Shown: in pieces, positions 34,239 to 38,550 of the stretch
How positions within the stretch are numbered: the stretch's first letter is position 1
Layout of the letters: every line of letters starts with the position of its first letter
NCBI RefSeq assembly: GCF_002017865.1
Contig: NZ_MTJN01000002.1
Coordinates: 1,984,001-2,048,000 of the forward strand
Source of the DNA: Rhodoferax fermentans
Lineage (GTDB): Bacteria; Pseudomonadota; Gammaproteobacteria; Burkholderiales; Burkholderiaceae_C
Direction: 5' to 3'
Length of the DNA stretch: 64,000 nucleotides
Notes under the pieces: generated by a model
Databases searched by the model: none
What the model was told of the DNA's origin: nothing
Seen by the model: the letters and a program-made list of their open reading frames with translations, nothing else
Program-made: the position numbers and the translations under genes

Positions 34239-34470
34239 CCTCAGACGCTCTGCGCTTTGCGACATCGGCCCCCCGCCCAAACTCACACGGCCCGAGAACA
34301 TCGCCGGGACTCAGCTTTTTTCAGGGGTCAGGCTGTTGAACGGTGGCGAACCAAAGTGCGCGCCGCAGCGGGTGGGGTGTTGGGGTCCACCGATGTCGCA
34401 AAGCGCAGCGCGTCTGAGGTGGGCGCCAATACCCCACCCGCTGCCACCCAAGACGTGAGACGGTCTTGGG
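34239..34470. repeat. Intergenic element built of interleaved inverted repeats
   Basis: The 302-bp gap 34178-34479 contains three dyads. IR-A: 34239-34268 and 34390-34419 are inverted repeats of 30 bp with one mismatch (core GCGCTTTGCGACATCGG). IR-B: 34365-34383 and 34426-34444 pair over 19 bp with one mismatch (CAGCGGGTGGGG.../...CCCCACCCGCTG). IR-C: CCCAAGAC/GTCTTGGG at 34447-34454 and 34463-34470. The right arm of IR-A sits in the loop of IR-B, so pairing both would form a pseudoknot. No T tract follows. No gene is supported here. Confidence 0.7.
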
Positions 34471-34479
34471 CCGCCAGCC

Positions 34480-35409
34480 TCAGCCCGCCGTCGCCATCCG
34501 CAGCCGACGCGCCGCGTCTTCAGCCCGGGCGTCGTCAATCTCGCGCAACACCGCCTGCATGTCGACACTGGCTTGTGAGCGCTCAAAACGACCTGTGAGC
34601 GGCATGTCCACACTCAGCAACCCGGCCTGGTACAGGCTCCAGATTTCAGGGCCGTACTCGGTGGCCAGCAGTTCGGGGGCGAACTGGCCGAAGAAGTCGC
34701 GCAGATTCGCCACATCGCGCAGCAACATGCGCTGGGCGTGGTTGTTGCCCGCCGCGTCCACCGCTTGTGGCAGGTCAATGATCACCGGTTCATCCAGCCC
34801 GTCGGCCTCATCCACTCCGGGGGTGTGCGCCAGCAGGATGTTGAACTCGGACAAATCACCGTGCACCACGCCAGCACCCAGCATGCGCACCACTTCTTTG
34901 ATCAGCGTGGCGTGGTGTTGGCGCGCCTGCTCGGGGGTAAAGGCCACATCGTTCAGGCGCGGGGCGGCGTCGCCCTGCGCGTCGGTCACCAGTTCCATCA
35001 GCAACACACCGTCGCAAAAGTTGTAGGGCTGGGGCACCCGCACACCGGCGGCGGCCAGGCGGTAGAGCGCGTCGACCTCGGCGCTTTGCCAGGCGGCTTC
35101 TTGTTCCTGGCGGCCAAACTTGCTGCCTTTGGCCATGGCACGCGCCGAACGCGAGTTTTTCACCTTGCGGTTTTCGGTGTAGTCCACCGCCTGGCGAAAG
35201 CTGCGCTGGGTGGCTTCTTTGTAAATCTTGGCGCAGCGGGTCTCCGCACCGCAGCGCACCACAAACACCATCGCCTCCTTGCCACTCATCAGCTGGCGCA
35301 CCACGCTGTCGATCAGACCCTCTTCGATCAGGGACATCAGTCGGGCAGGTGGTTTCATGGGGCGTTGGGTCGGGGCTGGGGGAGCTGGATTGTCAGCCCC
35401 AGCGCCCAT
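34480..35409 (-). CDS. RIO1-type serine protein kinase
   Basis: A 309-residue atypical protein kinase. Visible are the N-terminal helical segment SLIEEGLIDSVVRQLMSGKEAMVFVV, the phosphate-binding Lys in AKIYKEATQRSFR, the flexible-loop segment NSRSARAMAKGSKFGRQEQE, the catalytic VVHGDLSEFNILL and the metal-binding IIDLPQAVD. The start ATG lies one base after the TGA of the upstream alkX (TGA-T-ATG), which implies translational coupling. An internal ATG at 35358 (MKPPARLMS) is an alternative. Bacterial RIO kinases have no settled target. Confidence 0.88.
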   Translation of the reverse strand: MGAGADNPAPPAPTQRPMKPPARLMSLIEEGLIDSVVRQLMSGKEAMVFVVRCGAETRCAKIYKEATQRSFRQAVDYTENRKVKNSRSARAMAKGSKFGRQEQEAAWQSAEVDALYRLAAAGVRVPQPYNFCDGVLLMELVTDAQGDAAPRLNDVAFTPEQARQHHATLIKEVVRMLGAGVVHGDLSEFNILLAHTPGVDEADGLDEPVIIDLPQAVDAAGNNHAQRMLLRDVANLRDFFGQFAPELLATEYGPEIWSLYQAGLLSVDMPLTGRFERSQASVDMQAVLREIDDARAEDAARRLRMATAG

Positions 35410-35410
35410 A

Positions 35411-36535
35411 TCAGCCCAAGGCGTCTGGCTGAAGCCCTACTGGGGGTGTTTCAGGCAGTGCCAGAAAAGTGCGCAAGCGTGCCAGCTCCTCCTCCAGCGC
35501 CTGCGCAAACACCGCATCCGTCGGTGGGCTACCTGCCACATAACCCAGGTCCACCTCCAGCTGATCGCCCCGCACCGCCAGATTGCCCCAGCCAATGACC
35601 TGCTCGCGCCACAACAGCGGCAACGCGTAATAACCGCGCACCCGTTTGGGCGCCGGGGTGTAGGCCTCAAAACGGTAAGCCCAGCCCCAGAACAGCTCAA
35701 ACCGGCGCCGGTCCCACACCACCGGGTCAAACGGGGCCAGCAGCCGCAACATGTCGCCATTGGCCAAGCGGCGGCTGGTGGGGGTTTCATCAGCAGGCCA
35801 ATACCAGGTGACACCGTCGACCTGGGCGCTGGCCAGGCGCTGTTTGGCCCGCTGGAACGCAGCGGCGCGCTGGGTCGCCCACTGCGGCGTACCGCCACGC
35901 AGGTGGCTGATCAGCTCACCGAGCGAGCGCTCGGGCAGGGGTGCGTATTTGTTCACGATCACATCCACCAGCGCGTCCATGGCCTGGGCCGGGTCCGGCG
36001 CGGTTTCTGACATGCCGTCGCGCGCGGCATAGGTGCGCACACCACTCACCCGCCCGGCAATACGCAGCAGGCCGCGGTAATGCATGTCGTCAAGCAGTTG
36101 GGTGCTGGCGTTGGACGAGCCACCAAACCAGTTGCGCGCCGAGCCATGGGCAAAGTGGGCGTCCACCTCACGCGGGTGCACCACACCATGGGCCAGCACA
36201 AAGTCCAGCACCGCCTGGGCCTGCGCAGCACGCTCGGGGGTCCACACCGCCTGCGGCACACGTGGGTGCATCAGCGCCTGGGTGCTGCGCGGCACAAAGC
36301 CGTAGTTGACGAAAAAGTCTTCTTCAACATCAAGCTGGGGGTAACGCCGCTCCAGATCACCGGCGCGGTAGCCCTTGACGCGATGGCGCAGGGTCAGGTC
36401 TTGCGCACGCGCCGGGGCGCGGATCGGGTCCGCCTGCACAAAACCCAGGCGCGCGATGGCCGCAGGCAGCGTGGTGGGTGCAAACAGGCTGCGGGCCAGC
36501 GCAAAGCGACGCAGTTGGTGGAGAGTGATGGCCAT
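35411..36535 (-). CDS. alkX: AlkX/YcaQ-family DNA glycosylase (winged-helix, HTH_42)
   Basis: YcaQ-type glycosylases unhook nitrogen-mustard interstrand crosslinks and excise N7-alkylguanine. The 374-residue protein has tandem winged helices. It carries the catalytic-loop motif FVQADPIRAPARAQDLTLRHR, where Q-x-D marks the AlkX branch rather than AlkZ (QxQ). ERRYPQLDVEEDFFVNYGFVP, LLAPFDPVVWDRRRFELFWGW and YALPLLWREQVIGWGNLAV are family signatures. ATG 36535 is preferred because the LexA-type box (36553-36572) and promoter lie directly upstream. It is first in an operon with the RIO1 kinase. Confidence 0.92.
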   Translation of the reverse strand: MAITLHQLRRFALARSLFAPTTLPAAIARLGFVQADPIRAPARAQDLTLRHRVKGYRAGDLERRYPQLDVEEDFFVNYGFVPRSTQALMHPRVPQAVWTPERAAQAQAVLDFVLAHGVVHPREVDAHFAHGSARNWFGGSSNASTQLLDDMHYRGLLRIAGRVSGVRTYAARDGMSETAPDPAQAMDALVDVIVNKYAPLPERSLGELISHLRGGTPQWATQRAAAFQRAKQRLASAQVDGVTWYWPADETPTSRRLANGDMLRLLAPFDPVVWDRRRFELFWGWAYRFEAYTPAPKRVRGYYALPLLWREQVIGWGNLAVRGDQLEVDLGYVAGSPPTDAVFAQALEEELARLRTFLALPETPPVGLQPDALG

Positions 36536-36547
36536 GGTGCCCAGCCT

Positions 36548-36576
36548 TTGGTAACTGTGTAAAAATACAGTATATC
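36548..36576 (+). promoter_or_regulatory. LexA-type SOS box inside a sigma-70 promoter (alkX-alkC)
   Basis: CTGT-GTAAAAAT-ACAG at 36555-36570 matches the CTGT-N8-ACAG LexA consensus of beta- and gammaproteobacteria, with flanking A and TA. It exactly occupies the 17-bp spacer of TTGGTA (36548-36553) and TATATC (36571-36576), a promoter directed at alkC. It also lies 20 bp from the alkX start on the other strand, so LexA could repress both directions. Confidence 0.8.
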
Positions 36577-36635
36577 TGCCAGACATGGGGTCAACAATCC
36601 CATGTCACACCTCTTGAACACAAGCACCTTCCACC

Positions 36636-37754
36636 ATGGCTGAACCCCTGATCAAGCAATACGGCGCCGACGTGCCCCAAGCCATAACCAGCATGATTGC
36701 AGCGGTCTACCCGGCTTTTGACTCTGCCGGTTTTGTGGCCGAAGTACTGGACGGTTTTGACACCCTGGCGCTGATGGCACGTGGCCAACACATCGCCCGA
36801 GCACTGCGCCGCTTCTTGCCAGAGAACTACCCCGAGGCACTGGCCATCTTGATGGCGTCCATCGAGCAGCCCCATGGCCGCGACTCGAGCCTGACACTCG
36901 GCTCGTTTCTGTACCTGCCGCACACTTTGTTTGTGGCCAACTACGGGCTGGACCACTTTGAGGCGTCCATGGCAGCGCAGCACACCTTGACCCAGCGTTT
37001 CAGCGCCGAGTTCAGCATCCGCCCTTTTCTGGAGCACCACACACAGGCCACTCTGGCGCAGTTCAGGGTCTGGGCCACCGACCCGAGTGAACATGTGCGC
37101 CGCCTGGTGTCTGAGGGCTCGCGCCCACGCCTGCCCTGGGCGCCGCGCCTGCGCCAGTTCCAGGCCGACCCGACACCGGTTCTTGATTTGCTGGAGCTGC
37201 TCAAGGACGACCCGGCGCTGTATGTGCGCCGCTCGGTGGCCAACAACCTCAACGACATTGGCAAGGACCACCCCGAGCTGTTGACCCGCATCACCCAGGC
37301 CTGGCTACAAGACGCGAGCCCCGAGCAGGCCTGGATCGTGAACCACGCGCTGCGCTCGGCGGTGAAACGCGGCGAAGCCGGTGCGCTCAAGGTATTGGGT
37401 TATGGCCAGGCTGCGCAGTTGGCTGTGGGCCAGGTCCAGATCAGCCCCGGCCAGGTGGTGATGGGTGGCGCGGTACAAATCAGCTTTGTGCTGACCAATT
37501 CCCAAAACCAATCACAAAGGGTGCTGGTGGATTTGGCGGTGCACTATGTCAAGGCCAATGGTCAAACCCGCGCCAAGGTGTTCAAACTGACCACGCTGGA
37601 ACTGGCACCGGGCCAGACCGTGCAACTGTCCAAAAAACTCTCCTTGGCCGAGATGACGACCCGCAAACACTACCCGGGTCGCCATCCGGTGGCGGTATTG
37701 CTCAACGGCCAGGCGCAGCCGCTCGGCGCGTTTGAGTTGGTGCCGGGTGGATGA
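36636..37754 (+). CDS. alkC: AlkC-family DNA alkylation repair glycosylase (HEAT repeats plus Ig-like domain)
   Basis: AlkC excises N3-methyladenine and 3-methylcytosine from DNA. The 372-residue protein starts with AEPLIKQYGADVPQAITSMI. HEAT repeats run to about residue 240, with RVWATDPSEHVRRLVSEG, RPRLPWAPRL and DDPALYVRRSVANNLNDIGKD. An Ig-like beta domain completes it (VQISPGQVVMGGAVQISFVL to VALLNGQAQPLGAFEL). HEAT plus Ig-like is the hallmark that separates AlkC from AlkD. It is divergent from alkX and co-directional with alkB. Confidence 0.92.
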   Translation: MAEPLIKQYGADVPQAITSMIAAVYPAFDSAGFVAEVLDGFDTLALMARGQHIARALRRFLPENYPEALAILMASIEQPHGRDSSLTLGSFLYLPHTLFVANYGLDHFEASMAAQHTLTQRFSAEFSIRPFLEHHTQATLAQFRVWATDPSEHVRRLVSEGSRPRLPWAPRLRQFQADPTPVLDLLELLKDDPALYVRRSVANNLNDIGKDHPELLTRITQAWLQDASPEQAWIVNHALRSAVKRGEAGALKVLGYGQAAQLAVGQVQISPGQVVMGGAVQISFVLTNSQNQSQRVLVDLAVHYVKANGQTRAKVFKLTTLELAPGQTVQLSKKLSLAEMTTRKHYPGRHPVAVLLNGQAQPLGAFELVPGG

Positions 37755-37771
37755 ACCGGATTTTATGCATC

Positions 37772-37819
37772 CAATTGGCCTATAGCCCTTTAAACACAAG
37801 GGTCAATAGCTATCAATAA
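37772..37819 (+). repeat. Palindromic repeat copy R8
   Basis: CAATTGGCCTATAGCCCTTT then AAACACAAGGG and CAATAGCTATCAATAAAGG, between alkC and alkB. The AAAGG at its end is the best ribosome-site candidate upstream of alkB. Confidence 0.85.
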
Positions 37820-37839
37820 AGGAATGCAACGGGCGTGCC

Positions 37840-38499
37840 ATGGACCTTTTTGACGACCTGCCACCGGAGCCGGATACGGCACCCGCAAGCCTCGGGCCCG
37901 GTGCACTGCTGCTGCGTGGTTTTGTCTTGAAGGAGGCGCCCGAACTGCTGCAAGCGGTTGAGGCCGTGTTGCAGCAAGCGCCGCTGCGCCACATGCAAAC
38001 GCCCGGCGGTTACACCATGTCGGTGGCTACCAGCAGCTGCGGCCCACTGGGCTGGGTGTCCGACCCGCGTGGTTACCGCTATGCGGCGCACGACCCGCTC
38101 TCAGGCCAGGCCTGGCCGGACATGCCCGCTGTTGGTCTGGCGTTGGCGCAACAGGCTGCGGCGCTGGCCGGTTACCCGCAGTTTGCACCCGACGCCTGCC
38201 TGATCAACCAGTACCAACCCGGCGCCAAACTCTCCTTGCACCAGGACCGCGATGAGCAGGACCTCAGCGCACCCATCGTCTCGCTGTCGCTGGGCCTGCC
38301 TGCGGTGTTTTTGTTTGGCACACCCAGCCGCCAAGACCGGCCGCAGCGTTACCGGCTGGTGCATGGCGACGTGGTGGTGTGGGGTGGCCCGTCGCGGCTG
38401 GCGTTTCATGGTGTGGCGCCCTTGGCCGAGGGGGAACACGCGCTGCTGGGCAGGCGGCGCATCAACCTGACGTTTCGCCAGGTCAAGCGCCGCGTTTGA
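37840..38499 (+). CDS. alkB: Alpha-ketoglutarate-dependent DNA demethylase AlkB
   Basis: AlkB oxidatively removes methyl groups from 1-methyladenine and 3-methylcytosine using Fe(II) and 2-oxoglutarate. The 219-residue protein has the metal ligands HQDRDE (HxD) and His in LAFHGVAPL, and the 2-oxoglutarate-binding RRINLTFR. It also has the substrate-side MSVATSSCGPLGWVSDPRGYRY and NQYQPGAKLSLHQD. It follows alkC, separated by 85 bp holding repeat R8, and completes a three-enzyme alkylation-repair cluster. No Ada protein is present. Confidence 0.95.
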   Translation: MDLFDDLPPEPDTAPASLGPGALLLRGFVLKEAPELLQAVEAVLQQAPLRHMQTPGGYTMSVATSSCGPLGWVSDPRGYRYAAHDPLSGQAWPDMPAVGLALAQQAAALAGYPQFAPDACLINQYQPGAKLSLHQDRDEQDLSAPIVSLSLGLPAVFLFGTPSRQDRPQRYRLVHGDVVVWGGPSRLAFHGVAPLAEGEHALLGRRRINLTFRQVKRRV

Positions 38500-38510: not shown

Positions 38511-38550
38511 TGCCTCTAGCCCTTTAACAAAAAGGGCAAGCCGCTATGAA
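38511..38550 (+). repeat. Palindromic repeat copy R9
   Basis: TGCCTCTAGCCCTTTAAC then AAAAAGGGCAAGCCGCTATGAA, between the convergent alkB and LysR genes. Confidence 0.85.

Follow-up and report, generated by a model that had tools for sequence, protein, structure and literature searches.

A LexA-type box, CTGTGTAAAAATACAG, lies between divergent alkylation-repair genes in a 64,000-nucleotide stretch of the Rhodoferax fermentans genome (contig NZ_MTJN01000002.1, positions 1,984,001 to 2,048,000; called the window throughout). The surrounding 4-kb cluster (34480..38499) comprises a RIO-like kinase gene and alkX on the minus strand, and alkC and alkB on the plus strand. The box resembles those at lexA promoters of the same bacterial family and is selectively conserved beside alkX, and this palindrome is very probably a LexA operator. 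We propose that LexA probably acts as repressor of a bidirectional promoter from which alkX and, judging by its position, alkC are transcribed, and perhaps alkB and the kinase gene as well, which would make alkX a new target gene of a known regulon. The predictions, drawn from sequence comparison, differ in strength from gene to gene: LexA control is highly likely for alkX and rather likely for alkC, and we suggest it tentatively for alkB and, equally tentatively, for the kinase gene. The case is correspondingly strong for alkX, moderate for alkC and weak for the other two. A sequence-only reading of the window had placed AlkX, AlkC and AlkB genes around a divergent intergenic region holding a LexA-type box, and both observations were borne out, the genes by profile and structure-sequence matches and the box by its score and conservation.

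Sequence and conservation of the LexA-type box

The box is the sole exact CTGTN8ACAG in the window, where shuffled sequences lead to an expectation of 1.24; chance alone would give roughly one bare-consensus match per window, and such a match by itself is not significant. Across the genome the pattern occurs at 52 sites against 32 for a reversed control pattern, which implies that most exact sites are chance matches. Sites were scored with a weight matrix that rests on 20 distinct boxes at lexA promoters, taken from 18 of the 30 family lexA loci tried. Eight loci had no recognised start (L252, L253, L254, L256, L264, L269, L270 and L280); of the 22 that were read, 2 lacked a box, and L272 and L276 each had a weak site that was kept out of the matrix. 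By this measure CTGTGTAAAAATACAG reaches 25.1 bits (the source boxes, scored by their own matrix, span 14.6-29.8), and the second-best site in the window reaches 12.1 bits. Ranked by the inner 16 positions among 50 listed of the 52 exact genome sites, it stands third, below a site at a Bro-N gene and another where an error-prone polymerase gene begins, the latter gene match being a fragment below the full-length cut-off.

The genome has the partners that such an operator would need. It holds one LexA gene, whose promoter carries a tandem pair of near-consensus boxes, and TAAAAATACAGT is common to the window's site and one of these. RecA is encoded too, with an exact consensus upstream of recA (ranking 13th only), and another exact consensus lies upstream of imuA. 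The arrangement beside alkX is like the known LexA/SOS regulon in its CTGT-N8-ACAG operator type, in a LexA with a conserved recognition region and in a promoter-overlapping position, and this genome's lexA, recA, imuA and error-prone polymerase gene all carry exact or near-consensus boxes; it differs in having alkX and alkC as targets. The sequence-only reading had remarked that alkX is not usually described as a LexA target, and in a literature search that left most subscription journals out of reach we found no report of alkX or ycaQ as one. Accessible text of one study makes Streptomyces venezuelae alkB a LexA target, and its introduction counts ada, alkAB and aidB as SOS genes (PMC9380542).

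Conservation around the box is sharply local. We aligned eight loci on the box: the window, Rhodoferax U11-2br, Rhodoferax U2-2l, Rhodoferax Gw_Eff_bin_490, Comamonadaceae X1_MetaBAT.31, and one locus each from G108, G190 and G025. The half-sites are 100% identical, the inner eight bases 75% and the six TATA-bearing bases 81%, with the remaining flanks at 30-33%. A near-copy of the window (L068, Rhodoferax BLA1), which has the same site, was omitted.

We then surveyed AlkX orthologues in 104 family genomes, being those of 120 that matched at E ~1e-110 or lower, with 16 distant or partial ones dropped; two of the upstream stretches were short (118 bp upstream in L244, a 546-base piece in L226). 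In 8 of the 104 an exact box lies no more than about 250 bp ahead of the conserved start, and a CTGG variant, of a kind found at lexA, lies upstream of alkX in 2 more. Sites of at least 16 bits occur in 6 of the 104 alkX upstreams and in none of 743 kb of control alkC stretches, although these controls include other phyla, in which LexA sites may differ. Further counts also weigh against the operator reading: the box or its variant is present at only 10 of the 104 family alkX genes and most have neither, 4 of the 10 carriers score below 11 bits (1.3 in L150, 9.2-10.6 in L245-L247), and L153, which belongs to the Rhodoferax-like clade, has no box. Class-wide, alkX was matched in 32 of 370 genomes including the window's own, three others being at about 60% identity or higher, and no site of at least 16 bits occurred in the 28 additional loci for which upstream sequence was available.

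On a tree built from 56 chosen AlkX rows, the state of the box requires at least five changes. Eight carriers fall with the non-carrier L153 in the nine-member Rhodoferax-like clade (support 91), and the other carriers are in distant clades. Four gains with a single loss would be the most parsimonious account; the counts cannot separate gain from loss, and a single old gain followed by many losses may be the alternative. The tree took in 20 of the 74 later alkX loci in full length, chosen by hand with every box-bearing one included, and left out L039 (same genome as L149), the box-bearing L070 (translation truncated to 7 residues), L327 (truncated) and the distant L288-L313.

These data bear on the possibility that the palindrome is a chance match, or the site of some other dyad-binding regulator, and that alkX is constitutive as in E. 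coli. The chance expectations given above speak for it, as does E. coli itself: in the accessible part of one report ycaQ is constitutive, lies in an operon with msbA and lpxK and is not induced by mechlorethamine or methyl methanesulphonate (PMC7367128), and we found no CTGTN8ACAG-type site in the 489 bp upstream of it. We nevertheless consider this explanation improbable, given half-sites conserved amid scrambled flanks, recurrence of the box at alkX in separate clades, the empty control stretches and the likeness of CTGTGTAAAAATACAG to the genome's own lexA boxes.

Several other sites near alkX were considered. L185 (G078) has a strong LexA-like site some 857 bp ahead of alkX; this was not taken as an alkX operator, as it adjoins a divergent open reading frame (ORF) that looks by eye like a Y-family polymerase, and one-mismatch matches in L183, L215 and L224 were also rejected. 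Separately, L159 (G057) has a strong site, TACTGTATATAAACACAGTA, about 660 bp upstream of alkX, with a gap of about 640 bp that contains no long ORF; it may be an operator of alkX that an insertion has moved away from the gene.

Association of the box with alkX and the possible reach of LexA control

The box sits between two divergent genes, and its association can be read from loci in which those genes are apart. Among 110 alkC loci (30 + 80, the window's own included), an exact box lies within 300 bp upstream of alkC in 5, and in all five alkX is immediately divergent with the box between. The 102 alkC stretches lacking alkX, which refers to stretches of up to 4 kb flank and not to whole genomes, have no site of at least 16 bits upstream of alkC (0 of 102; 27 kb). 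In two of the remaining three loci (L039 and L076) the box is at alkX and a rarD-like gene lies between alkX and alkC; the third, L111, has only an edge fragment that resembles alkX, and no box. We therefore rejected the box as a feature of alkC or of the island: by these comparisons it belongs with alkX. The sequence-only reading had put the whole alkylation island under one box, of which the part that stands is the likeness of the box to a genuine LexA operator; its companion is alkX and not an alkylation island.

The box also stays at alkX while the neighbour beyond it varies. That neighbour is alkC-alkB in the window, an alkB 77% identical in G190, a rarD-like gene and then alkC in G108 and X1_MetaBAT.31, a DTW-like gene in G025, an esterase-like gene in G164 and G070, and a GGDEF-like gene in G007, G139, G216 and G026 (names other than alkB and alkC were assigned by eye, and the comparison ran without L070 and part of L202). 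In three further loci (L071, L078 and L088) the kinase gene is divergent from alkC with no alkX between, the two being 73-127 bp apart, and the kinase leader of L071 resembles that of the window. This suggests that alkX was inserted between the kinase gene and alkC; loss of alkX would look alike.

How far LexA control would extend beyond alkX depends on the promoters. The sequence-only reading held that the box fills a 17-bp promoter spacer, and this is true of the alkC side, where the spacer (N17, 36554-36570) is nearly filled by it; the hexamers themselves are less secure (Table 1). Counted by eye, the hexamer pairs match 8 of 12 consensus positions on either strand, a promoter scan at 9/12 recovers neither pair, and the alkC -35 is not conserved. 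A comparison of the intergenic region with plasmids gave no match.

These weaknesses lend weight to a narrower explanation, in which LexA governs alkX alone, with any genes behind it, and alkC and alkB have their own promoters with the box merely adjacent. The box tracks alkX and not alkC, and an alkC without a nearby alkX never has it, so that alkC may be a mere bystander; alkB, moreover, is separated from alkC by 85 bp that include a hairpin-like repeat. Yet the box occupies the spacer of the sole visible alkC promoter, all five loci with adjoining alkX and alkC are divergent with the box between them, and in G190 it lies between alkX and a divergent alkB. On balance we regard control of alkX alone as somewhat unlikely and prefer a shared operator. 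In an undamaged cell, a LexA dimer would sit on the shared TATA region and block RNA polymerase in both directions; upon DNA damage, RecA-driven self-cleavage of LexA would free the operator. Leftward transcription would then yield AlkX and probably the RIO kinase, and rightward transcription AlkC and perhaps AlkB.

Ada and a possible division of alkylation repair

Having seen no ada gene in the cluster, the sequence-only reading concluded that SOS induction replaces the Ada adaptive response, and it proposed looking for ada elsewhere in the genome. That search located an ORF at G000:C2:3887583 with an Ada metal-binding domain (PF02805, 105.9 bits), an AraC-type helix-turn-helix (HTH_18), AlkA_N and HhH-GPD, followed by ogt. 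This Ada-AlkA fusion misses the NCBI Ada equivalog cut-off (101 of 345 bits), and its methyltransferase part is the separate ogt. The two genes sit about 1.9 Mb from the island, and no exact LexA consensus occurs in the 3.2 kb around ada-alkA. Of the 30 family genomes checked, 29 encode an Ada domain, and each of the ten that carry the alkX box or its variant is among them.

The absence of ada is thus true of the 4-kb island and false of the genome, and the central inference of the sequence-only reading fails, because the genome has Ada-AlkA and ogt. An organism in which SOS had taken the place of Ada would fit the lack of ada in the island and the absence near the island promoters of AAAGCGCA (nearest at 34400), which we take to be the core of the E. 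coli Ada box; the fusion, ogt and the spread of Ada through the box-bearing genomes contradict it and make it most improbable.

With Ada-AlkA and Ogt encoded elsewhere, alkylation repair would instead be split into a LexA arm and an Ada arm. The Ada adaptive response acts on the same lesion class, and differs here in that Ada is fused to AlkA and Ogt is separate; the accessible text of one source has E. coli alkB under ada control (PMC1839093). If this division is real, one cell shares out alkylation repair between two damage sensors. Ada senses methyl groups, and crosslinks, by stalling replication, should raise the SOS signal, a lesion logic that fits such a division.

Regulation of crosslink glycosylases appears to differ among bacteria. 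E. coli ycaQ is reported as constitutive; in A. baumannii mechlorethamine induces alkX, for which the authors propose species-specific regulation, naming no regulator in the portion of the paper accessible to us (PMC13303869). A conserved LexA-type operator at alkX would provide a concrete regulatory route in an environmental clade. We tentatively advance a broader view, in which LexA captured alkX repeatedly in one betaproteobacterial family: a box-carrying alkX would act as a travelling regulatory unit that puts an adjoining alkylation gene (alkC-alkB, rarD-alkC or alkB) under SOS, giving rise to a LexA arm for the repair of alkylation and crosslinks beside the Ada arm and not replacing Ada.

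As a separate observation, neither LexA, Ada, alkX nor alkC was matched in G194, the single exception among the 30 genomes checked for the Ada domain; it belongs to the window's genus and is given as 100% complete.

Genes of the cluster and other LexA-like sites

Table 1. Positions of genes, predicted operator and putative promoter hexamers in the window
Feature	Position	Strand	Remarks
LexA-type operator (predicted), CTGTGTAAAAATACAG	36555..36570		between alkX (-) and alkC (+); 66-81 bp upstream of alkC
Putative alkC -35, TTGGTA	36548..36553	+	4/6 consensus
Putative alkC -10, TATATC	36571..36576	+	4/6 consensus; TATA common to alkX -10
Putative alkX -10, TATACT	36569..36574	-	overlaps box; TATA beside box conserved
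Putative alkX -35, TTGTTG	36592..36597	-	17-bp spacer; weak, 3/6
alkX	35411..36535	-	AlkZ-like/YcaQ-like crosslink glycosylase homologue; likely start Met-18; ORF extends to 36586
alkC	36636..37754	+	alkylpurine DNA glycosylase homologue
alkB	37840..38499	+	NF011930, 333.7 bits against cut-off 267
RIO kinase ORF, PA4780-family	34480..35409	-	within the 4-kb cluster, unnamed in the sequence-only reading

The alkX product is AlkZ-like (PF06224, 147.9 bits), matches 9zd6 at E 1.6e-13 and matched no NCBIfam family. In the alignment with 9zd6, which we judge from its residue numbers to be the TfuAlkX of PMC13303869, QAD aligns with QID (the AlkX-type QxD catalytic motif) and the Y, E and R of the DNA-binding loop align as well; that paper, in its accessible part, is the source of the definition of AlkX/YQL glycosylases by the QxD motif and loop tyrosine. 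The protein resembles the Acinetobacter and Thermobifida AlkX and YcaQ (YQL glycosylases) in QxD motif and loop Tyr, Glu and Arg, and differs from E. coli YcaQ in having 27% identity over 318 residues. We read it as a probable AlkX/YcaQ-type crosslink glycosylase homologue, which may unhook interstrand crosslinks. Taken from 36586, the listed ORF would include the LexA-type box; conservation suggests Met-18 at 36535 as the best placement of the start, which puts the box 20-35 bp upstream of alkX.

The alkC product has full-length homology to the solved AlkC 5vi0 (297 bits, residues 4-368); Pfam gives HEAT_2 only, with a score of 24.1 bits that falls short of the cut-off of 27.7, and no NCBIfam family matched. 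The alkB gene is the sole PF13532 match in the genome, and its TIGR00568 score of 188.7 lies below the cut-off of 231. Co-transcription of alkC and alkB is uncertain. The hairpin repeat between them, TAGCCCTTTAA...AAGGG, occurs in two copies, at 37783-37802 behind alkC and at 38517-38536 behind alkB, where shuffles expect none.

On the other strand, the first ATG of the kinase ORF lies 2 nt past the alkX stop, with homology from Met-18 (35358), and the ORFs are nearly contiguous. The kinase gene is possibly the second gene of an alkX operon, and if it is co-transcribed with alkX it would encode an SOS-induced protein kinase. The same order, alkX then kinase on one strand, also occurs in L068, L069 and L070.

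Elsewhere in the same genome, two Bro-N genes and a RhuM-family gene have strong LexA-like palindromes close by (L020 1095, L021 1073 and L022 1003, at G000:C2:2398294, 3984372 and 3991702); these are perhaps mobile-element genes under SOS. Another LexA-like box (L029 1022, G000:C2:1441721) stands 23 bp upstream of a 316-aa ORF that has no Pfam or NCBIfam match and is possibly an SOS gene of unknown kind.

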